Both the position numbers and the translations under genes were made by a program. Positions 3,088-59,078 of a stretch of DNA of 64,000 bases are shown here, in pieces. This DNA comes from Sabellastarte sp. h YS-2021 (taxonomy: Eukaryota > Annelida > Polychaeta > Sabellida > Sabellidae). Numbering within the stretch: position 1 is the stretch's first letter; the number at the start of each line of letters is the position of its first letter. The stretch is taken from positions 67,179,603 through 67,243,602 of the forward strand of contig OZ024929.1 in NCBI GenBank assembly GCA_964017235.1, read 5' to 3'. The notes under the pieces were generated by a model. The model had not been told where the DNA came from and did no database searches. It saw nothing but the letters and a program-made list of their open reading frames with translations.

Positions 3088-6000
3088 AACTAGATTGGGC
3101 CAACTCGGCGCCAACATATCCCCAGACAGGTCATCACTCACGCCACAGGTTTTGATCGGGAATTTTTTAAAACATAATTACCCATTATTATATGAACTTC
3201 AGCACATCAATCTGCTCTGTTTATATCTCCCCAAGGAAGATGGTGTATCCCCAGACGCCGAATACATAACTCAAATTATATTTTCAATCTTCCTGCAATG
3301 ATAACTCTAAACCTATTTTCAAAGTATTTAAATGATTGATGATTGAATGTCCATTCTAAAATAATAATCCCAAAAGAGCATATCTGTTTCTATATTTGTT
3401 GACAAATAAAATATTATTTTTAACTCAACTCATCATATTTTTCAATCTTCCTTCAAAGTATTTAAATGATTGATGATTCAATGTCCATTCTAAAATTCAT
3501 AATCCCAAAAGCGCATATCTGTTTCTATATTTGTTCACAAATAAAATATTATTTAAAAAAAATTATTTATATTATTATTTTATTATATTATTTTTAGAAT
3601 TTGCAAATTGTTTTCAGTTATTCATTTCCTCTATACCTATATATGTGGTCCATATATATGCAACCTAAATATGTGACACAATCTCAGTTCTGACTCCCCT
3701 TTGTGTTATATGTAATGAAGCCCACCACCTCCCACCCCCACCCCTTCTCCACACCTCTCTCACTATTACACAAGATCTGCAACCCCATTGAGTTCTTTGT
3801 TTCTCATCTGATATCATTAAATACCTTTGTTTATTTAGTGTCACTCAATATAGCTGGAGGTCCCAGAGGTGGGTGGGGGGAATCCGGGTGGGGGGATGTG
3901 GGTTGAGCATAAATGGTAAACAAACAATCTATATAAAAGGGGTACTCAAATACAAAAAGAATTGAGAATTTTAAGTATGTGATTATCAACTGAAATGAGT
4001 TCATAACTGTAGGAGCTGTGCCAAAATTAACTGAGGCAAGTTGAATAAAACTGGGCTAGTTGAGGGTTAAAAATCCCCTAGTTTTACTACATAAGGATAT
4101 AATTTCATTAATATTGGGACTTAAAGCTCACTTAAAGTGTCCATTTTGTCTACTTCAATATGTTTCACCAGTTTCATTTTAAAAAGTGAAAAACTCAGCA
4201 AGCAGAGGTATAACACACAAAAATAAGTTCTTAAAAGACTAAGATAGCCATAACATTATTAATATTCAAAATTTAAATAGACAGGCATTTCCTTTTAAAA
4301 ATTCAAAGATTTCAGCTCTATAACCCACATAGTTTGACAGTTACTGGGCTTTAAAGTGGCATAATATCCATAAATTGGGTTTCTGTGAGCATTTTACAAT
4401 TGTTAAAGAGACCTTAGCAATTAAACTACAGATCTGAAACTTTTTGGGGGGACATACATAACAAACAAAATTCATATATAATACAGTTTAAGACTTGTCA
4501 CACTAAGCATTTCCAAATAACAGGGCAAAATACGGAAAAAATGTCAAAAAAGGCACTTGGGCGAGTGTCTATGGCCCTCATACACAGGTTAAATGTCTAC
4601 TAAAAACCTTGATTTTCGGCATATGCAAAAAGGACATAATAATGCATTCCCAGATGGGATTTCAGCTCCATCAATCACATAGTTTAACAGTTACAGGGCT
4701 TAAAGGTGGTAAAAAGTCCAAATATTGGGTCATTGTGGGCCTTTTAGAGATCTCGATGTGGCTTTCAAATTAAAGCTTCAGACTTAAAATTTGTTACATA
4801 CTAAGATTACACATAGAATATGTATCTAATAAAGTTTGAAACTTCTCAGACTTACCATTTCCAAGTTACAGAGCAAAATATGTGAAAAATGTCTTAAAAG
4901 GGTCACTCTGGTGGGTGTTAAAGGTCCTCATACACAGGTTAAATGTCTACTTGAAGCCTTGATTTTTGGCACATGTAAAAAGAACATAATAATGTATTCC
5001 CAGATGAGATTTCAGCTCTATCAGTCACATAGTTTAACAGTCACAGGCCTTAAAATTGGCAAAAAGTCCAAATACTGGGTCTTTATGGGGCCTTCTAGAG
5101 ACCTAAATGTGGCCTTCAAATTAAAGCTTCAGACTTAAAATTTGTCACATACTAAGATTACACATAGAATATGCATCTAATACAGTTTGAAACTTCTTAG
5201 ACTTACCATTTCCAAGTTACAGGGAAAAATATGTGAAAAATGTCTAAAAATGGTCACTCGGGTGGGGATTTATGGTCCTCATACACAGGTTAAATGTCTT
5301 CTTAAAGCCTTAATTTTTGGCACATATAAAAATAACATACTAATATCTTCTCAGATAGGATTTGAGCTCTATCAGTCACATAGTTTGACAGTCACAGGGC
5401 TTAAAAGTAGCAAAAAGTCCAAATATTGGGTCTTTGGGAGCCTTTTAGAGACCTCAATTTGACCTTCAAAATTAAAGCTTCAGACTTAAAATCTGTTACA
5501 TACTAAGATTACACACAGAATATATATCTAATACAGTTTGAAACTTCTCAGACTTACCATTTCCAAGTTACAGGGAAAAAGATGTGAAAAATGTCTTATA
5601 AGGGTCACTCGGGTGGGTGTTTATGGTCCTGATACACAGGTTAACTGTCTATTAAAGGCCTAAATGTTGGGGCACATATAAGAAAACACATAGATATATT
5701 CCCAGATGATATTTAACTTAGATGAGAGACATAGTTTGAAAGCTACAGTGCTTGAAAGTGGCAAAAAGTGCATAAATTGGGTCTCTGTGGGCACTTTTGA
5801 GACCTTAAGTCGACCCCTTTGGGTAAACCTACAGCCCTAAAATTTTCTACAGACAAGGATTACATATCAAAGTTATACCTAGCGCAGTTTGAGACTCATC
5901 AGAATTATCACTTCCAAATTATAGGGCAAAATATGTGTAAAGTATAGCAAAAAATCCCTAAGTGGGGGTATTTATGGGCCTCAAACACAATTTTCTCCTC

Positions 6001-6359: not shown

Positions 6360-40114
<33,755 letters not shown>

Positions 40115-42891: not shown

Positions 42892-43121
42892 GGGGGCCAC
42901 AGTGGCAGAGTGGTAACACTCTCGCCTCCCACCTCTGAGGCCGGGGTTCGATCCCCTGACGGCCTTAAGTGGGAAAGCTGGTAGTTGCTTGCCGTTGGTC
43001 GGCAGTTTACAGTACACAACCCTAGCGAACTGTATGTACTGGTTTCCTCTGCCCTTCAAACTACCCGTCGTGATATGACCTGTACAGTGTTGAAAGCGAC
43101 GTAAAACCCCAAATAAACAAA
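42892..43121 (+). mobile_element. tRNA-derived SINE (family 1), full-length copy a
   Basis: 230 bp with a pol III A box (TGGCAGAGTGGT) and B box (GGTTCGATCCC), a conserved middle ('CAGTTTACAGTACACAACCC', 'GTACTGGTTTCCTCTGCCCT') and tail 'GACGTAAAACCCCAAATAAA'. It is flanked by a 14-bp target duplication CATATTTTACACTT (42878-42891, 43122-43135). Copy b at 58849 is also exactly 230 bp. Confidence 0.92.
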
Positions 43122-43588
43122 CATATTTTACACTTTGGATACAACTCAAAGTAATTAATTCTTTCCAAGATGACATGTATTCATGAATCATTGTATATTC
43201 AATATTCTATTTCTGATGACATTGTAATACATAATTTTGCATCAAATATAATTATAATTGCTCAAGGTATGTAAATCCATATTATCCAACTAGATATCCA
43301 TTTTTATGTTTTAATAGGACCAGTATTATTCAATGTCTTCAATTGAAATTCTTTTTGTGAAATTTTAAAATATTTTTTTTTCTTTGTAAAAAACAGTTGT
43401 GACATTCTTTATATCTTCAGCATTTTATCCAATTAGTTTTTGTTAAATGTTTCATTAAGTTGGCTATAATTATATTGTAATTATAAAGAAGCTATAATCA
43501 TGTAGCAAAGCCACAATGCTCAGTTCAGATGCTTGTGTCTCATACAACTTTGGCATATAAACTGAGAAAAAAACACAAGAATAGCCAC

Positions 43589-43600
43589 CACAGTGGTTTT
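43589..43600 (+). repeat. Left TIR of the RAG1-N-like transposon
   Basis: CACAGTGGTTTT; the terminal CACAGTG is the exact RSS heptamer. After base 12 the two ends diverge, though TTTAGTT recurs 16 bp after the heptamer here and 23 bp after it at the other end. Confidence 0.85.
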
Positions 43601-44436
43601 TCTGCTGTAAGTTTAGTTTAAAATGGTACACATAAACACACACACACTCAGAGAAGACTTGTGTGTGTTGTTGGTGATGTAAACAGAGCACAGCTTGTAC
43701 TCTCACTTGTATGATTTTATGCAGGAGAAATGTCTGTGAAAAAAAGGTTCTTTATTTTGTTTTTGTTTTTCATAAAACTTTTTCAGTGCACATGAAAAAA
43801 CAAATTATATGTATTAAAAGCACTATCTTTGTTTAATGCATTAGTATATATATTCTAGTAATTCTTTTTAAAAACCAAGCTGAAATATTACACATTCCAT
43901 TCCATGTGCATATGTAAACAGAACAAAATGTGTTGTGAAATAATCTGAGTTTCTAGAAAATATCATAAACTTTTAATCAATGATTAATTAATGTTGCTCA
44001 TTTTTGATAAGCATATATGTTATATGTACTTTTTCCAGAATGTCAGGGCAATTCAATGGTATCAAATTCATTGTTGTTTATTTTTATATAAAGACACAAT
44101 TCCCTGGAAAAAAAGCTGCATATTTGTTGTAAAATAGGAAATTAAATGCTAAAACAAAGAGAAAGATTGCATAAAACATAGATAGGACTATAAGTGTATT
44201 CTATAAGTATCATTGAAAAATGAAAAAGTTACCTATTTCACCTTGTTAAACTTCCTGTTATATCCAATTACAGCTAAACTATCCACATGGTAAATACATT
44301 GACAGTCCCTGCTCCGATATGTTAATAATTAGGCACATTATATACAAAATAAATAGTTTTGAATAATCAGTTTATGTACAGAAGAAATAATTACTGTCTC
44401 AATGAAATATCACAGTTTGAATGGTGCCACCAGGTT

Positions 44437-47400
44437 TTAATTTTTAACAGTGTTGCTTTTACTTCTTGGTTTAATAATTAGGCTTTGTATTGAGGGATTA
44501 GTGAGTGTGTGGTGCTCTCTCATTATGAATAGCAATCTCTGTGTAGTATTTGTGACATGACACATATTTCGCTGAATCCTGTTGAACTCTCTATGGATGG
44601 ACTCGCCTCCTTGTTCTCCATAGAGACCCATTCCAAAACCCCATTTACTAATCCAGTCTATGACATGATCTTCCAGAAAATGATGCTTAGGGATGAGTAA
44701 ATTTGGAAAGTACTGTCTGTAATATTTCAAGTAATTTTCAATGGAAATTTTGATATCTGGAAGCATATCTTGTGATATTTTATCCATGTGTCCAACTTTA
44801 GTGTGAATGTCAGAGAAATATTGGTTAAGTTTCAAAAATTTAGATGCAGTTTGTTTTGCCCTATCATTTATGTCAGGCTTTCCACTCAGCTCACAAACTT
44901 TTTCTAGAATGGTACACCATGTCATCCTGGATATTTGACTTTAAATACTTTGAGCAGTGATTCCCTACAAATGACTTGGAATGATAAGCCTGTTGGACAA
45001 TATTGTGATGCTTTAGTGTAATCTGCACTGCTGATACAACAGGACCAGACTGGACTTGTACTGATGGTTTACATTTTACAAGTTTCAATTCTATTGAATC
45101 TATGCGGGTTTGCAGTTTCTTAGCCTCCTTCTCAGTCACGTTGCTGTTTTCTTCGTCTCTTTCATCCCTGAGAAAGCCAAGTGAATTCAGCAATTTCCTC
45201 TTTTCCCTCAACCCTTTAATGTACTGGTGAAATAATGAGTTATCTAGTTTTGCCTTTGAAAGTGATATGTCTTCAGCAATTTGAAGATCAATTTGGTGAA
45301 GCTCATTTTCCAGAAGGTCATGGTGTTTTTTCACAATCCCCAGCAGCATATGAAGGTATGGAGGGCAAACATGTTTTACTTTGACATCCCACATAGGCCT
45401 ATGTATCACATTGTTGAAACTGGAGGCAAGTAACAGATTTTGTTTGCCATCCTTCTTGAAGTTCTCATAGTCTTTTATCATTCTTCCAAGTTTTCTAGCC
45501 CTGATCAAACCTCGACAATCAAGTGGAATTTGTAGATCACCATAGCGAATATTGCACCAGAAACAAAAATGTTTGCCTCTTGCACCTGAGAGACCATATA
45601 GACTAGCCAGAAAGGCATAATCTCCATAAACAAACAGCCTTATCCTTTTGTTTTCCCAATAATCCTCTTTAAGCTGGTTTATTTGGCTCTCATGAATGGA
45701 GCATAGCTCATATTTTCATAAATATCTTTGGCAGACATACAGGCATATACTATTGTGTTCTCCTTCGAATTTGGCTTGTCTAAATTGCACACTTGGAGGC
45801 ACAATTTAAAAGAATTGCCTCCATGATCTCCACCTATTTTTACCCATATCTCATCCTTTGGCATTCCATCTCTCCATAGAAGTTTGCCATTTTGCTTGTA
45901 GCCATCAAGTAAGTCCTTCACAAACTTTTGGAGGTTCCTCACATGGACTACTGGTGCAGATGTTTCTGTTAATCCTCCTTTACTATCGTGACTTTTGTCA
46001 TTTCGTTCAATAACTATTATTTGCTTTGTTTCTAAATAATTTGACAGAATCTTTGATCTTTCAAGTCTTTCCTTTTTCTCACTTTCACAATGTACTCCAA
46101 GTATTCTTGTCAGATAGCGTTTCTGTCGCCTGTGCTGATTCCATGACAAACCGAGAGAAGTTTTCATAGCTAAAGCAACTCTCTTGGACAGGAAAGATTT
46201 TTGTTTTACCCCAGCATTGGAACATATTTTAAGTTTAGAGTTTTTCGAAAGCACTTTAAGCTCAGATGACTGCTGGGCACTGTGTGAATCCTTACTTTTT
46301 CCTGCTACAGCAACACGATACGAGGCAATTTGACGTGCTCTTCTTCTTTTTAATGGAGACGAAACATTTGCACTTTCCTTTCTTGGTTTCACTATTCTTT
46401 TCAAAAGCAGTGGTTGACCACCAGTCTTGCAAGCTATTATTATTATTATTATTATTATGTATTTATACTCAGCGCAATATCTCCATATACTACAGGACTC
46501 AAAGCGCTATTTAACCAATCCGACTGTACAGGTACAGCCTCAACTCACAAGTAACTGACATTCCCCTAACTGGAAGATAGAGGCTCAAGGATGACCATTT
46601 ATCAACGTCCTTGAGGTTCTTTAACCTGCCACTGGGGATAGGACCCAATGACAGAGGACCGCCATTTTAAGTGGTCATCCGAGCCACTATGTATCTGCCT
46701 GTACCTGGGATTGAACCCACGTCCTCTGAGTTCCTAGACAAGTGTGTTACCCGCTAGGCCACAGTGGCAGATAAAAGCTATGATATTTTCTTTAGCAAAG
46801 TTCAGTTTTCGTTTTGTTAAATGTGTATGTAACCTTTCCTCATCCTTGTCAAGTGGTGAGGTGATTGATCTAGAAACTGTTTTATTGAATGTACTATCAG
46901 GTGATTCTTCTTGAGTGAAAGTTCCAAAAATCGGTGATGTTTGAATTTGCATTTCAACATGAGATTTATTGGGTTTTGGAGTACTATGTGCCTGCTCGTG
47001 ACCTGGAGTTTCAATTATAACATTAACTGACTCACTGGTGGATTGTATACTTAGAGGAGAGTTGATATCACAGTTATAATGGGACATAAGGTCATAAGAC
47101 ATTGTCTTTTCACATTTTCCACACTTCACAGGGAGCTTTGTTAGTTGCTTGTGAAATCTTTCATCAGCGCTTTTAACATCACTAGTTGAAACAAAATCAG
47201 AACATACTGGACACAAAACAGGGTCACTTTTTTCACTGTGGATATAGTTTGATAAGCATTCACAGCAAAAGTAATGATCACACTTGGTTTTTACTGTTGC
47301 TAATGAATATAGATCTTGACAAATAGGACACTTGTATGTTTCTGCATGTTCAACTGGCACTTTTGTATGATCAATGTGGACTTCCAAATGTGATATATTT

Positions 47401-47891
47401 GTGTCATGATCGAAAAGCTTCTTTAAAATGTCTTGTTGAGCTGATTGGCAAGAGGTTTTACTTCTTGGTCTTCCCTTTTGATGTTGTTTTTTTTTACGTC
47501 CTTTGCCAGATTGAGAATCGTATTGTTTGCACACTTTACAATCAAATCACTTGTGACACTGCCACATGTCTGAAACGATTTTTGCTCTTTCTTTAACACC
47601 TAGATATTTTTCATTATCCAGTTTTGTAGTTTCACAGAGAACTTTAGCATTTTTCATCTTGAAAAAACAATGGGTGCAGATTTTCTGAGGATGTATTTCA
47701 GTGTCTGATGTAACATTTATTCCATAGAAAATGAAAATTTCATCTTTGCTATTGACACAAAGTCTTGGCACCTGCCTTTTGTCTTTCTGTAGACGAGTCA
47801 GGACTCTGTTACTACAGATCCTGCACATATTATCGAGACACTTGAAATGATATTCCATTGTCATTGATTCATTTGGTCTATTTTTTGCCAT
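44437..47891 (-). pseudogene. Broken RAG1-like transposase gene
   Basis: ATG at 47891-47889. In order: an N-terminal zinc pair (CRIC ... DTEIHPQKICTHCFFKM, like RAG1 'CRICGN...IHPTEFCHNCW'); an in-frame TGA (47549-47547); CKVC and a basic GRPRSK stretch; a C3HC4 RING (CPICQDL...CDHYFCCEC...CPVC, 47330-47202); a zinc finger VKCGKCEKTMSYDLMSHYNC (last Cys at 47070), matching the RAG1 'LMVKC..C' finger in position; a SINE at 46438-46774; GGDHGG (Asp 45828-45826, candidate first acidic residue); a frameshift near 45685; YGDYAF (Asp 45622-45620) followed by GLSGARGKHFCFWC, similar to RAG1 'GLEASG..YICTLC' after its second catalytic Asp; a second frameshift near 44925; and GLYGEQGGESIHREFN (Glu 44616-44614 or 44604-44602) as candidate last acidic residue. 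About 1,050 codons in all. The catalytic assignments are inferred from motif position. Confidence 0.85.
46438..46774 (-). mobile_element. tRNA-derived SINE (family 2) inside the RAG1-like gene
   Basis: A 337-bp minus-strand insertion. It has an A box (TGGCCTAGCGGG) and B box (GGTTCAATCCC) near its right end, the tail AGCGCTTTGAG..GCGCTGAGTATAA (in pieces) and (ATT)n at 46438-46457. AAGCTAT flanks it (46431-46437, 46775-46781). Removing the SINE and one flank copy leaves the host reading frame open across the junction, so it inserted into a then continuous coding frame. Confidence 0.88.
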
Positions 47892-48748
47892 ATTTCTTAG
47901 GCAAAATTATAAATATTAAGAAGTATATAAAGTGATCAGAGTTATTCTCCAATATTCATTAATCTACATGTACATAGATTAAAATTTGAGCTAGACACAA
48001 ATTACATTTAACGATTTAAACAAATAATCTTTCAAGATTATGTTAAGAGTATATTTTATTCTATGAAAAGAATAACCATACAGACATATTTATAAGATGT
48101 CATTTTACAAACCATTCTTAAAAAAACATTGCAGTGTCTGCAATGCCTATTGCTTCAGCAGCTAAAAGAGCCTATGTTTTTATCATATGCATAACAAACA
48201 CACAACTTCAAGTATATGCACAATACTCTGTGTGTAGTGTGATAAATGGGGCTATTAAAATGATTAAACAAAAATAAACAGAAAAGTACCTTAGTGCATC
48301 AGAGAGCACAGGATCTGGGCTGTATTCTGATATAAATTTTACCTTGGACAAAAATGAGAAACACTAAAACTTACAGGTTTAAAAGAGGTGAAATAATTGT
48401 TCATTGGAAACTCAATTCTCTTATGTTTAGTTCTAGGGATGAATGGAATGTCATCTTTTTTGTTGGTTAATTTTAAAAGAAAGATTTTTTTTTATTTAGT
48501 CAAAATAAGTATGTTCTTAGCTTTTAATACATATAGGTTTTGCTTAAAAATTTTGGGAATAAGTATTTTTAAAAGTTGATTATAAAAAGAGATCCCAAGT
48601 TTGTCAGTTTTTCTTCCACGATAAAATTTGCATGTGTGGAGTGTGTGGGTGTGTGTGTTTGTAAACTGCTGTTGTGTAAGTGTTAGCCAGAACTTATCTT
48701 ATGTAGGCCAAATAACACAATCCAACTAAAACAGGAATTACTTGCTTT

Positions 48749-48760
48749 AAAACCACTGTG
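48749..48760 (-). repeat. Right TIR of the RAG1-N-like transposon
   Basis: AAAACCACTGTG, the exact inverse of the left 12 bp. The CCAC flank repeats the sequence before the left end. Confidence 0.85.
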
Positions 48761-49250
48761 CCACATTATTAGAACTCCACCCATTACTCCCCACCTTAAT
48801 TAGTTGTCAGTGCTGACCACAAAAAACAGACTTAAAGAAGTAAACACCATGCATGCAATTAAGCAAAGGTAAACCCCCACCTCCACCCCTGCTGTGTTAT
48901 CTAATTACTTTAGTCACAGGTCCAGTGTTCTGTGTAGCAGGGTACAGATATAAAAAACCAGGAACCCCACAACCTCACTGTTGTGTGATAAAATGCTATA
49001 GCTTAGGTTCTCTGTATAGAGAAGTTTTCAGTGTAAACTTGCAAACTGAAAACTAGTTCTTTGTGTATGGGAGAATTTTGAGAAACAAATTCTAATTACT
49101 AAGTTTTGATGAATAAGTTTGAATTTATCTTTTTTTATTTAAGATAAGTTTGACTTCAAAATGTTTTTTTTTTAATTATCGGGAATTGCATTAATCAAAA
49201 TATAATTATAAATTGTAAAAATTATATTTGGATGCATCAGTTAATTAATA

Positions 49251-49294
49251 TTTATTTATTTATTTGGGGTTTTACGTCGCTTTCAACACTGTAC
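49251..49294 (-). mobile_element. 5'-truncated family 1 SINE
   Basis: The last 44 bp of SINE family 1 in reverse orientation (TTTGGGGTTTTACGTCGCTT, TCAACACTGTAC), flanked by AGTTAATTAATA on both sides (49239-49250, 49295-49306). The clean duplication shows that a truncated copy was inserted rather than deleted afterwards. Confidence 0.8.
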
Positions 49295-50217
49295 AGTTAA
49301 TTAATAAGGAGAATGGATAAAAATGTATAAGTACATGCACACATAATCTTTATCATCTTTATAATCTTTAAAATTAGTCTTTGCTTTACAAATACCTACA
49401 AATTCAAAAACAATTGCAATAATAGTTCTTTCAAAAAGTTAGACTTAATCACTATATCACCCTCTAGAAAATGAATTTTCAATCAACCAGTCATTCATTT
49501 CCCAATATTCAACCTGTTTTCTTTTCAATAACATGACTAAGATTTCATGTCGAAAAACCTACCTTGATTTAGTGGTGATTTTTTATGAAGTATCACTACT
49601 TTTTCCAGTCAGAAATCCAGCTTTGAAATAGTATTGAAATTGTGTCAGTGTCAGTTTTTCAACCAAAAATTACCATGATTTCTGGTCAAAATATCACTAC
49701 TTTTTCATGTCAGAAAACTAACTTAGATTTAATAGTTGGTAATGTGCATTTCAACGTCATTACCTGTTTTCAACTCTAAATCAACGACATTTCAAGGCGT
49801 GTGCCTGCTGGGGTTTTCGTGCATATGGGACTTTCAGTTATTTCCCATGGTTTTACGGTTTATTTTTGTGCTGTTCCAGTTTGTAAACTTTGTTTCCCAT
49901 AGCAACCGTCATTCTTCTTTAGTGTGAAAGTTTTTTTCTGTGGAAAAAGGCCAAGAAATGTATCAGAAACAGGTAATATATTGTTTTTAACATGTTTCTT
50001 TCAATAATTTATGTAATCATGAAATCGCCCATCTGATGTATCGTAAACATGCAACAGCATATAACCATAAACTTCTATGAGCGCCTTCATACTGTAACTC
50101 TCCTAAATTTTGCTAATACTAAGGTGGTACACAAAATTTGATTAAATTTGAGATCAATTATGAAAGAATCTTTCACTGACATTGTAACCTCCTCCAATTT
50201 TTTCTGCATTCTGTTTT

Positions 50218-52810: not shown

Positions 52811-55423
52811 AACTAGAGATTGCGTCTCGACGCAGTGTATCCCCGGACGGGACATAGTTAACGCGTGAATATGTCTGTCTTGAGCCTGTTTCCTGGAGCA
52901 CCAGGTCAGGATTCTCCATAGTACCAGATTACTCCCAAAAGCTAATCACTAGTTCTTTCACTTATATCTGTCTTTAAAAATTACATTTCATGGATCCAGA
53001 AGATCCATATAGTGATCCGGATCACTTCCAAAATTCAATCATTTCATCCTTTTACCTTTTCAGACATATTCTAAAAATTTCATCACAATCCGTCCATAAG
53101 TTTTTTAGTTATCTTGTACACAAACACATCTGGCAGCCTGGATCCACATGATCCAGACAGTGATCCAGATTACTCCCAAAAACTAATCACTTGTTCTTTG
53201 TCCCATTTAAAACATTTCCTGAAAATTTCATCAAAATCCATTCATGACTTTTTGAGCTATTTGTCTTTAAAAATTACATTTCTTGGAACCAGAAGATCCA
53301 GATAGTGGTCCAGATCACTCGCAAAATTGAATCACTTCTTCCTTTTACCACTTCTTCCTTTTACCATTTGTAACATATCCTAAAAATATCAAAGTCCATC
53401 CCAAGAGGCAGCCTGGATCCAGATGATCCAGACAGTGATCCAGATTACTCCAAAAATTTAATCACTTGTTCCTTGTACCATTTAGGCCATTTGCTGAAAC
53501 AATCCATCCATAACTTTTTGCGGTATCTGTCTTTAAAAATTACATTTCATGGATCCAGAAGATCCATATAGTGATCCGGATCACTTCCAAAATTCAGCCA
53601 TTTCATCCTTTTACCTTTTTAGACATATCCCGAAAATTTCATCAAAATCCGTCCATTAGTTTTTCAGCTACATTGTACACAAACACATCTGGCAGCCTGG
53701 ATCCACATGATCCAGACAGTGATCCAGATTACTCCCAAAAACTAATCACTTGTTCTTTGTCACATTTAAAACATTTCCTGAAAATTTCATCAAAATCCAT
53801 TCATGACTTTTTGAGCTATTTGTCTTTAAAAATTACATTTCTTGGAACCAGAAGATCCAGATAGTGGTCCAGATCACTCGCAAAATTGAATCACTTCTTC
53901 CTTTTACCACTTCTTCCTTTTACCATTTGTAACATATCCTAAAAATATCAAAGTCCATCCCAAGAGGCAGCCTGGATCCAGATGATCCAGACAGTGATCC
54001 AGATTACTCCAAAAATTTAATCACTTGTTCCTTGTACCATTTAGGCCATTTGCTGAAACAATCCATCCATAACTTTTTGCGGTATCTGTCTTTAAAAATT
54101 ACATTTCATGGATCCAGAAGATCCATATAGTGATCCGGATCACTTCCAAAATTCAGCCATTTCATCCTTTTACCTTTTTAGACATATCCCGAAAATTTCA
54201 TCAAAATCCGTCCATTAGTTTTTTAGCTACATTGTACACAAACACATCTGGCAGCCTGGATCCAGATGATCCAAACAGTGATCCAGATCACTCCCAAAAT
54301 CTAATCACTTGTTCCTCGCACCATTTAGGTCATTTGCTGAAAATGTCATCACAATCCATCCTTAACTTTTTGAGGTATCTGTCTTTAAAAATTACATTTC
54401 ATGGATCCAGAAGATCCATATAGTGATCCGGATCACTTCCAAAATTCAACCATTTCATCCTTTTACCTTTTCAGACATATCCTGAAAATTTCATCAAAAT
54501 CCATCCATAAGTTTTTGAGCTATATTGTACACAAACACCTCTGGCAGCCTGGATCCGGATGATCCAGACAGTGATCCAGATCACTCCCAAAATCTAATCA
54601 CTTGTTCCTCGTCTCATTAAGGACATTTCCTGAAAATTTCATCAAAATGCACCCATAAGTTTTCGAGTTGTCTGTCTTTAAAAATTAAATTTCATGGATC
54701 CAGAAGATCCAGACAGTGATTCGGATCACTCTCAAAATTTAATCATATCTTCCCTTTACCATTTTGGACATATCCTGAAAATTTTATCAAAATCCATCTG
54801 TCAGTTTTTGAGTTATCTTGTTCACAAACAAACAAACAAATAGAGGGCCAAAAATGACCCTCAGTCAGGTACTTTGGCAGTCAGTGGATGGCCTTAAATG
54901 AAGATCTGTAACCGGTAAGCCTGGATGCTGGTACTCCATCATGTACTCAACCTCCAAAGCCTTTTTCAATAGTTTCCATGCAATGTAGTCCGCATTAAGT
55001 GTGAAAATATCTCCAAAAAGGCCAAAAATGACCCTTGGTCAGGTACTTTGGTGGTCAGTGGATGACCTTCAATGAAGAGCTTCAAGGTCAAATTTCTGCA
55101 TGCTTACAGAGGACATATATATGTATTATATTTACCAGCCATAGGATGATCTGACTTTCTGTATAGGAGAACTGGGCCAAAAAGTGAAAAAAATGGCCAA
55201 AATCTGACCTTTAAGAGGCCACCAGTGACCTTGAGATTGAAGGTCAAGGTCACAAAACAATAGCGTTTGTGGCATTGCCCATATATACCCACATACCAAA
55301 TTTGAAAGTTCTAACTAAAATATTTTTTAAGTTATCACGTCCAAAAGGAAATCTCTGTGGCGGCGGCAGCAGCGGCGTGACCGTACTGAATCCTAAGTAT
55401 CCCCGACTTTCGTCCGGGGATAC
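52811..55423 (+). mobile_element. Family B element, copy 2
   Basis: Same AACTAGAGAT / TGCGTCTCGACGCA start and TATCCCCGACTTTCGTCCGG tail hairpin as copy 1. The GATC-rich core includes a near-perfect 559-bp tandem duplication (about 53171-54289). The CGG tract is at 55360-55376. The flanking sequence (52715-52810 and 55424-55480) matches an uninterrupted repeat at 59216-59345, giving an empty site: CATTT|AACTAATCACTAA against CTATT|element|AACTAATCACTAA. Confidence 0.82.
53171..54289 (+). repeat. Recent 559-bp tandem duplication inside family B copy 2
   Basis: Two consecutive blocks offset by 559 bp are almost identical, e.g. the frame at 53571-53864 recurs at 54130-54423. Each block holds about four basic GATC-rich monomers. 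Confidence 0.85.
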
Positions 55424-58652: not shown

Positions 58653-58848
58653 AATTTTTTGGAAGTGGTCAGTCTCATAGAAAACCCTTGTGTTAAATCC
58701 TGCAGATGTTATTTGGTGGCATGGTGAAATCTGGAGTCAGTGATGTCACAATGCATGATGGCATTGTGGAATCTATATGAATGCAACCTGAGATGATCTT
58801 TTGGGAGTGAATCTGATCCCTGGAGCTAGGATTGATCCTAGGTTGAGG

Positions 58849-59078
58849 GGCCACGGTGGCAGAGTGGTAACACTCTTGCCTCCCACCTCTGAGGCCAGGG
58901 TTCGGTTCCCGGCACGGCCTCAAGTGGGAAAGCTAGTAGTTGCTTGCCATTGGTCGGCAGTTTACAGTACAGAACTCTAACGAACTGTATGTACTGGTTT
59001 CCTCTGCCCTTCCAACTACCCGTTGTGATATGACCTGTACAGTGTTGAAAGTGACATAAAACCCCAAATAAATAAATA
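58849..59078 (+). mobile_element. tRNA-derived SINE (family 1), full-length copy b
   Basis: 230 bp, same boxes and tail as copy a (A box TGGCAGAGTGGT, B box GGTTCGGTTCC, tail ACATAAAACCCCAAATAAAT). It is flanked by a perfect 15-bp duplication GATCCTAGGTTGAGG (58834-58848, 59079-59093). The CpG sites in the tail are mutated relative to copy a. Confidence 0.93.

Follow-up and report, generated by a model that had tools for sequence, protein, structure and literature searches.

A Chapaev-group transposon in the Sabellastarte window

The window analyzed here, a stretch of 64,000 nucleotides from the annelid Sabellastarte sp. h YS-2021 (assembly GCA_964017235.1, contig OZ024929.1, positions 67,179,603 to 67,243,602), contains a complete DNA transposon at positions 43589-48760, with CACAGTG ends and a CCAC duplication. 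The minus strand carries its gene, between about 47.9 and 44.4 kb. This copy is dead, with one stop, two frameshifts, and one insertion that resembles a short interspersed nuclear element (SINE). The features of the element are as follows.

43585..43588, no strand: target-site duplication CCAC, left copy (read from the window)
43589..43618, plus strand: short end (gene's 3' side), with tip CACAGTGGTTTT at 43589-43600, spacer of 11 bp, and TTTAGTT at 43612-43618
44437..44940, minus strand: gene piece 5, E region (GEQGGE, 44602-44619) and C terminus (motif)
44891..45715, minus strand: gene piece 4, second D (GDYAFL, 45608-45625) and C-x2-C (45554-45568) (motif)
45679..46506, minus strand: gene piece 3, start of the DUF1280 core and first D (GGDHG, 45820-45834) (Pfam, motif)
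46431..46774, no strand: SINE-like insertion, 344 bp including a 10-bp target duplication (copy comparison)
46734..47546, minus strand: gene piece 2, RING and the zinc finger after it (frames, Pfam)
47547..47906, minus strand: gene piece 1, N-terminal zinc domain (RAG1-like, "Chapa"), stopping at an in-frame TGA (frames, Pfam, profile)
48724..48760, minus strand: long end (gene's 5' side), with tip at 48749-48760, TTTAGTT at 48724-48730, and spacer of 18 bp
48761..48764, no strand: target-site duplication CCAC, right copy (read from the window)

A first-pass annotation of this DNA had proposed inverted CACAGTG termini and a 4-bp CCAC duplication around a complete, boundary-resolved copy. The heptamer was found at 43589-43595 (plus strand) and 48754-48760 (minus strand), in both cases within 12-bp ends that are exact inverted copies of each other. 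By itself the heptamer is common: 10 copies occur in the window versus 5.7 expected, and 12 of 100 shuffles reach 10. Inverted 12-bp pairs located 0.3 to 8 kb apart and sharing the same outer 4 bp numbered 6 in the window and 0 to 2 in each of 20 shuffles. The element ends account for one of these six pairs. Two more belong to the copies of another repeat at 43.1 and 49.3 kb, inverted repeats that were considered and rejected for this reason; one pair is internal to the element (43810/48531), and the last two are at 37.8 kb. Past the 12-bp tips, similarity between the two sides of the element is loose; alignments over 300 to 600 bp scored above all 200 dinucleotide shuffles, and a 16-bp perfect match lies 218 and 226 bp from the ends.

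The boundaries are settled because other genomic copies show both ends and 4-bp duplications of their own. A DNA search of the 1.786-Gb genome gave at least 35 matches to the left 812 bp and at least 33 to the right 761 bp. Both ends were present in 17 of 20 fetched loci of the window element's family (family A); in the remaining loci (L015, L024, and L028), one end is missing from the fetched stretch. Fourteen of the 17 two-ended copies had exact 4-bp duplications (ATAT twice, AGTT, GTTG, ACCG, TATG, ATTA, CTAT, CCGT, TGTG, GGCC, CATG, TTAA, and TAAA), one (L022) was off by one base, matching at three of four, and the flanks of two (L012 and L016) did not match. No boundary differing from the CACAGTG ends was met in this family. 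The annotated termini, duplication, and boundaries were borne out; the gene of the window copy is broken. No relatives were found in viral and prokaryote collections.

Two sets of loci had unusual flanks. L012 carries a second right end behind the copy, with CGCG at both right ends and TATA at the left flank, and is a rearranged or partial tandem insertion. The flanks of L022 and L024 (C11, 68.05 and 68.11 Mb) consist of identical bases in opposite orientation, a pattern that points to a segmental duplication and not to two separate insertions; because of this common flank, the two loci are not independent.

The core of the encoded protein matched the Pfam profile DUF1280 (E = 9.4e-21 in the window piece and 2.4e-21 in an unbroken copy), for which 97 matches were found across the genome. 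In the window, the D, D, and E motifs of the type known from Chapaev and RAG1 are GGDHG, GDYAFL, and GEQGGE. Chapaev cores have C(2)C and H(3-4)H in the interval from the second D to the E; a C-x2-C lies there in the window pieces, and an H-x4-H was recognized by eye, H922 and H927 being invariant in five sequences. Members of the Chapaev superfamily generate 4-bp target duplications. DUF1280 corresponds to Chapaev transposases and joins RAG1 only at the clade level (PMC3985635). CA..TG termini, present in the window family and its sister families, are known from the wider CMCT clade, for which duplications of 2 to 5 bp are given (PMC12730594), and Kapitonov and Koonin placed Chapaev as one of four clades of the Transib superfamily (PMC4411706). 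A profile of the core retrieved no RAG1 chain from the PDB, and PF12940 was not among the Pfam matches of the window and unbroken-copy proteins. Genome searches with PF12940 and PF12560 gave zero matches, and control genomes gave none either, which makes these negatives uninformative. Judged by sequence, the element is a Chapaev-group cut-and-paste transposon, and its core is not that of RAG1.

Bipartite ends with two fixed spacer lengths

The ends of the element are bipartite, each consisting of a tip (CACAGTRGTTTT), a spacer, and an inner box, TTTAGTT; the box and the two fixed lengths had escaped the first-pass annotation. Usually the spacer measures 11 bp at the end that lies 3' of the gene and 20 bp at the end that lies 5' of it; from the heptamer, the distances to the box are 16 and 25 bp. 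The 20-bp spacer was found in 17 of 20 counted family-A long ends, compared with 18 bp in the window copy; the three family-A long ends with spacer 18 may trace to one event.

Family A was compared with sister families B, C, and G, whose proteins are 45 to 55% identical (open frames of 1043, 1029, 1051, and 1055 codons in A, B, C, and G, respectively), and with family D. The ends of B, C, and G were found through inverted ends with an identical 4-bp flank, a procedure blind to inner sequence; those of B came from end and pattern searches, and B flanks used as DNA queries hit satellite and other repeats. In all three families the box begins at 23 bp from the tip for the end 3' of the gene and at 32 bp for the end 5' of it. 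Most fetched family-A copies have the same positions, the exceptions being L019, with 24 at the short end, and two copies with 30 at the long end, L018 and the one in the window. The box itself was changed in L017 (TTTAGCT, short end) and in a family-G copy at C2:189.4 Mb (TTTAGGT, long end). Family D ends fit these positions, but two D ends lack an exact 4-bp duplication, and no pair of terminal inverted repeats with a duplication was found in the stretches fetched around L031, L039, and the C18:5.45 Mb match. The heptamer is CACAGTG in families A and C and CACAGTA in B, G, and D, so the exact heptamer stressed in the first-pass annotation is not general.

With one row per family (n = 5; the A row is the common family-A end rather than the window's long end, and the D rows are the two ends without an exact duplication), box identity was 1.00 and tip identity 0.88 and 0.95 at the short and long ends, respectively. 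Spacer identity was 0.34 (short) and 0.30 (long) versus 0.27 expected from composition, and identity past the box was 0.38 and 0.26. Because five families have their usual lengths in common while the spacer sequence is near saturation, we infer that selection acts on the spacing between tip and box, most simply because one transposase assembly would have to touch both at a set distance.

Pairing of short and long ends across the genome

The patterns CACAGTGGTTTT and CACAGTAGTTTT, each followed by N{4,30} and TTTAGTT, were searched genome-wide and gave 79 and 93 places, versus 6 and 7 when read backwards. Among these 172 ends, 141 had a usual spacer (11 in 65 and 20 in 76). Facing ends within 13 kb were taken as pairs. 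All 53 pairs combined one shorter with one longer spacer, 47 of them exactly 11 and 20; one pair (C14:17.09 Mb) has spacers of 6 and 14. The longer spacer was 5' (upstream) of the gene in 39 of 39 pairs enclosing a DUF1280 match. The other 14 pairs lack DUF1280 and are 1.75 to 3.1 kb long, and 13 are exactly 11/20; they are presumably internally deleted derivatives that move with help. By class, 106 ends were paired, 26 were unpaired beside DUF1280, 39 had neither partner nor DUF1280, and 1 fell in no class. The rule of sides was followed by 25 of the 26 unpaired ends beside DUF1280, the exception being a 5' end with spacer 16. The 39 ends with neither had spacers of 20 (n = 11), 16 (n = 8), 11 (n = 5), or other lengths (n = 15).

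An alternative view is that TTTAGTT is a signal for the host or for transcription and not a site for the transposase. Its shortness and AT-richness speak for this, but the box is present at both ends with a fixed distance to the tip, even in 13 of the 14 pairs without DUF1280; we regard a host or transcription signal as quite unlikely.

The explanation that we favor, and consider probable, is that the window holds a dead copy of a multi-copy Chapaev-group transposon whose transposase would read both boxes and whose synapsis would consist of one short and one long end. Unbroken relatives encode a single-frame protein of about 1,030 to 1,055 residues with a RAG1-like zinc domain, RING, zinc finger, and DDE core. 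This transposase would contact tip and inner box together, a single assembly touching the two at a set distance and doing so differently at the two ends. Natural synapsis would join one short with one long end; the element would then be excised and reinserted with a stagger of 4 bp. In this scheme the two fixed lengths would have a role partly resembling that of the 12- and 23-bp spacers in V(D)J recombination, with neither a nonamer nor RAG2. It is most likely that both boxes are read by the transposase. A stricter proposition, that Chapaev has a two-spacer rule (16/25 bp) under which synapsis needs a short and a long end and which the RAG1-headed transposase enforces alone, is tentative, and we would put it somewhat short of an even chance.

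An ordinary Chapaev element, in which the box and the two distances merely aid binding at each end with no rule of pairing, is a serious contender whose chances we also judge to be a little under one half; it overlaps the Chapaev part of the favored explanation, and the likelihoods overlap too. The families share ancestry, and unrelated DNA transposons, piggyBac among them, have subterminal sites that are asymmetric; both points fit such an element. The modal spacer lengths are nonetheless equal in five families despite near-saturated spacer sequence. Within family A, spacer length is already altered in 4 of 39 counted ends (1 of 19 short and 3 of 20 long), among copies that differ little from one another. 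In addition, AAAGCAA lies at 12 in the long spacer of A and at 15 in that of C, a shift of 3 bp, while the box stays at 32. The constant modal spacing argues for a length constraint, not for a pairing rule as such.

Several aspects of the material weigh against the favored explanation. The search pattern needs an exact tip and box, and ends without the box are invisible to it. Families A, B, C, and G are the only ones whose ends were initially located by a criterion that ignored the box, namely an inverted repeat plus a 4-bp duplication. All families come from one genome and have common ancestry, and copies of the same family are not independent.

Further places with CACAGTGGTTTT followed by TTTAGTT were seen, mostly with spacers of 15 to 17 bp that resemble CTGTGTCATGTGAC (for example, C3:163937219-163937253). 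No DUF1280 match was seen near the places of this kind that were checked, and they represent another repeat or a third end type.

The transposase has a RAG1-like N terminus and a Chapaev core

The domain order of the protein is N-terminal zinc domain, RING, zinc finger, basic segment, and DUF1280 core with D, D, and E. The RING (Pfam E = 9.5e-7 in the window) follows the zinc domain; it, the zinc finger, and the DDE-type core had been annotated correctly. The first-pass annotation had also described RAG1-like N-terminal zinc motifs and, overall, a RAG1-like protein. The Pfam profile RAG1_imp_bd scored above its cutoff of 23.3 bits in three of five N termini scanned (34.2 and 33.6 bits in family C and 24.1 in D). 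When a profile of the five N termini was searched against the PDB, the RAG1 N terminus came out on top (chain 21wb_A; whole-sequence E = 8.8e-4, best-stretch E = 0.024), followed by a second-ranked match at E = 1.3. Because sister families C and D pass the cutoff, a RAG1-like N terminus is supported, and we read the domain as probably homologous to that of RAG1 at the level of the families, not from the window copy alone. The description holds for the N terminus of the family and fails for the core, although profile similarity to RAG1 or Chapaev was present in both parts.

A number of scores go against this assignment. The window copy reaches 14.5 bits with RAG1_imp_bd, and similarity to RAG1 claimed from this copy alone was rejected on that score; its zf-AD score is higher, at 19.4 bits (cutoff, 28). 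RAG1_imp_bd gave 22.4 bits with the full-length family C protein, just below the cutoff, and 20.5 bits with family G, and family B and the unbroken A copy gave no match. Scores with zf-AD were 18.7 (A), 24.5 (D), and 26.2 (G) bits, always below its own cutoff but similar to or above those of RAG1_imp_bd in these families. When pieces 1 and 2 were joined with the TGA read through, RAG1_imp_bd dropped from the list. BRCA1 and RNF4 scored above RAG1 with the RING, no RAG1 RING chain was among the 60 best matches of the family profile, and a RAG1-specific RING was rejected. Nor did the transposase give a match to a nonamer-binding domain. The TGGQP segment after the RING, which we take to resemble GGRPR of RAG1, was considered for this role and rejected, having no RAG1 match.

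Between the zinc domain and the RING, AT-hook-type GR and GRP motifs were observed at residues of about 136 to 147 (L010 numbering). They are invariant in the five N termini and are candidates for contacting AT-rich DNA.

The RAG1-like N terminus, the RING, and the exact heptamer would also be expected of a true RAG-like element (RAGL/ProtoRAG or Transib) that had lost RAG2. Such an origin is extremely improbable given the Chapaev core, the failure of that core to match RAG1 in the PDB, and duplications of 4 rather than 5 bp; protostome RAGL elements have 5-bp duplications (PMC7204232). As the first-pass annotation had stated, no RAG2-like gene is visible and the element is not a ProtoRAG pair: apart from the gene, no frame within the element exceeds 93 amino acids, and the single additional frame of at least 150 amino acids seen with unbroken copy L010 lies outside the element.

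Comparison with known two-distance systems

N-RAG-TP of Aplysia californica, from Panchin and Moroz in 2008, is reportedly a transposon encoding a RAG1 N-terminal-like protein, as here; one review describes the Aplysia element as nothing but RAG1 N-terminal-like sequence, whereas the window element adds a Chapaev core. The combination of a RAG1-type N terminus and RING in Chapaev is an already published architecture: Chapa and RING have been reported in two Chapaev subgroups, where a single protein joins the RAG1-like zinc domain to RING and the Chapaev core (PMC4411706). Those elements are from a different genome, and the excerpt describes no spacer asymmetry.

The ends resemble V(D)J signals in the CACAGTG heptamer, a second conserved block, two fixed lengths, and free spacer sequence, and differ from them in that V(D)J signals have the nonamer ACAAAAACC and 12/23 rather than 16/25 spacing (PMC8289069). 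The nonamer of the recombination signal sequence matched at no more than 4 of 9 bases at spacings of 12, 13, and 22 to 24 and at 5 of 9 at 11, and a nonamer at 12/23 was rejected as absent. Viewing GGTTTTTCT as an inverted nonamer directly abutting the heptamer amounted to a post hoc reading of a T run in one end type and was abandoned. The pairing rule is proven for V(D)J recombination, whereas obligatory short-long pairing here is a proposed rule.

ProtoRAG of lancelets likewise has a heptamer-like tip (CACTATG) and an inner block after two unequal spacers (27 and 31 bp), but it carries RAG1L and RAG2L genes, makes 5-bp duplications, and has another tip, inner block, and spacings (PMC8289069). 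Transib elements whose ends are listed as 12/23-like are also single-gene transposons with an asymmetric tip and block; they differ in having a Transib core without the RAG1 N terminus and 5-bp duplications (PMC8355894). Compared with the RAG and Transib systems, the window group follows the same logic, while inner box, duplication length, and core differ and RAG2 is absent. According to PMC8355894, 27/31 of amphioxus ProtoRAG were the only asymmetric invertebrate ends found, although a figure legend there also lists oyster RAGL and some Transibs as asymmetric; 12/23 dependence was suggested to have arrived with vertebrate RAG2.

No description of spacer asymmetry in Chapaev ends was found in the open-licence literature, judged by titles and with Repbase outside its coverage. 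A RAG1-headed group that lacks RAG2 has maintained two exact lengths across five families with scrambled spacers, which offers a new way to ask how two-distance signals arose. As a multi-copy system with naturally open transposase frames in one and the same genome, it allows one to ask whether pairing of unlike spacers needs RAG2. If the stricter two-spacer rule holds, logic of the 12/23 type would also be found beyond the RAG/Transib line, in a RAG1-headed transposon, and would be either ancestral to both or evolved twice.

Decay of the window copy and other repeats

One open frame, of 1,028 or 1,043 codons from stop to stop, was found in 2 of the 20 fetched copies (L009 and L010). In the window copy the frame is interrupted by an in-frame TGA at 47547-47549, by small deletions near 45705 and 44918 (relative to L010), and by the SINE-like insertion. 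The gene, annotated as three segments, is therefore in five pieces, and its break at 46.43 to 46.77 kb is the 344-bp insertion. This insertion is missing from all 18 fetched copies that cover the point, which L015 and L024 do not. It has tRNA-like boxes, recognized by eye only, and a TTATTATT tract; ARAGORN and Rfam found no tRNA in it, and it did not match the repeat at 42893-43121.

That repeat recurs at 58847-59076 with 92% identity and starts near a GCCACAGTGGCAGAG motif. To the right of the transposon, at 49246-49296, is a short copy of it in inverted orientation. The window also contains long tandem arrays with units of about 150 to 350 bp at 4475-5805, 16642-18952, 20778-22411, 27737-29018, and 52965-54830.

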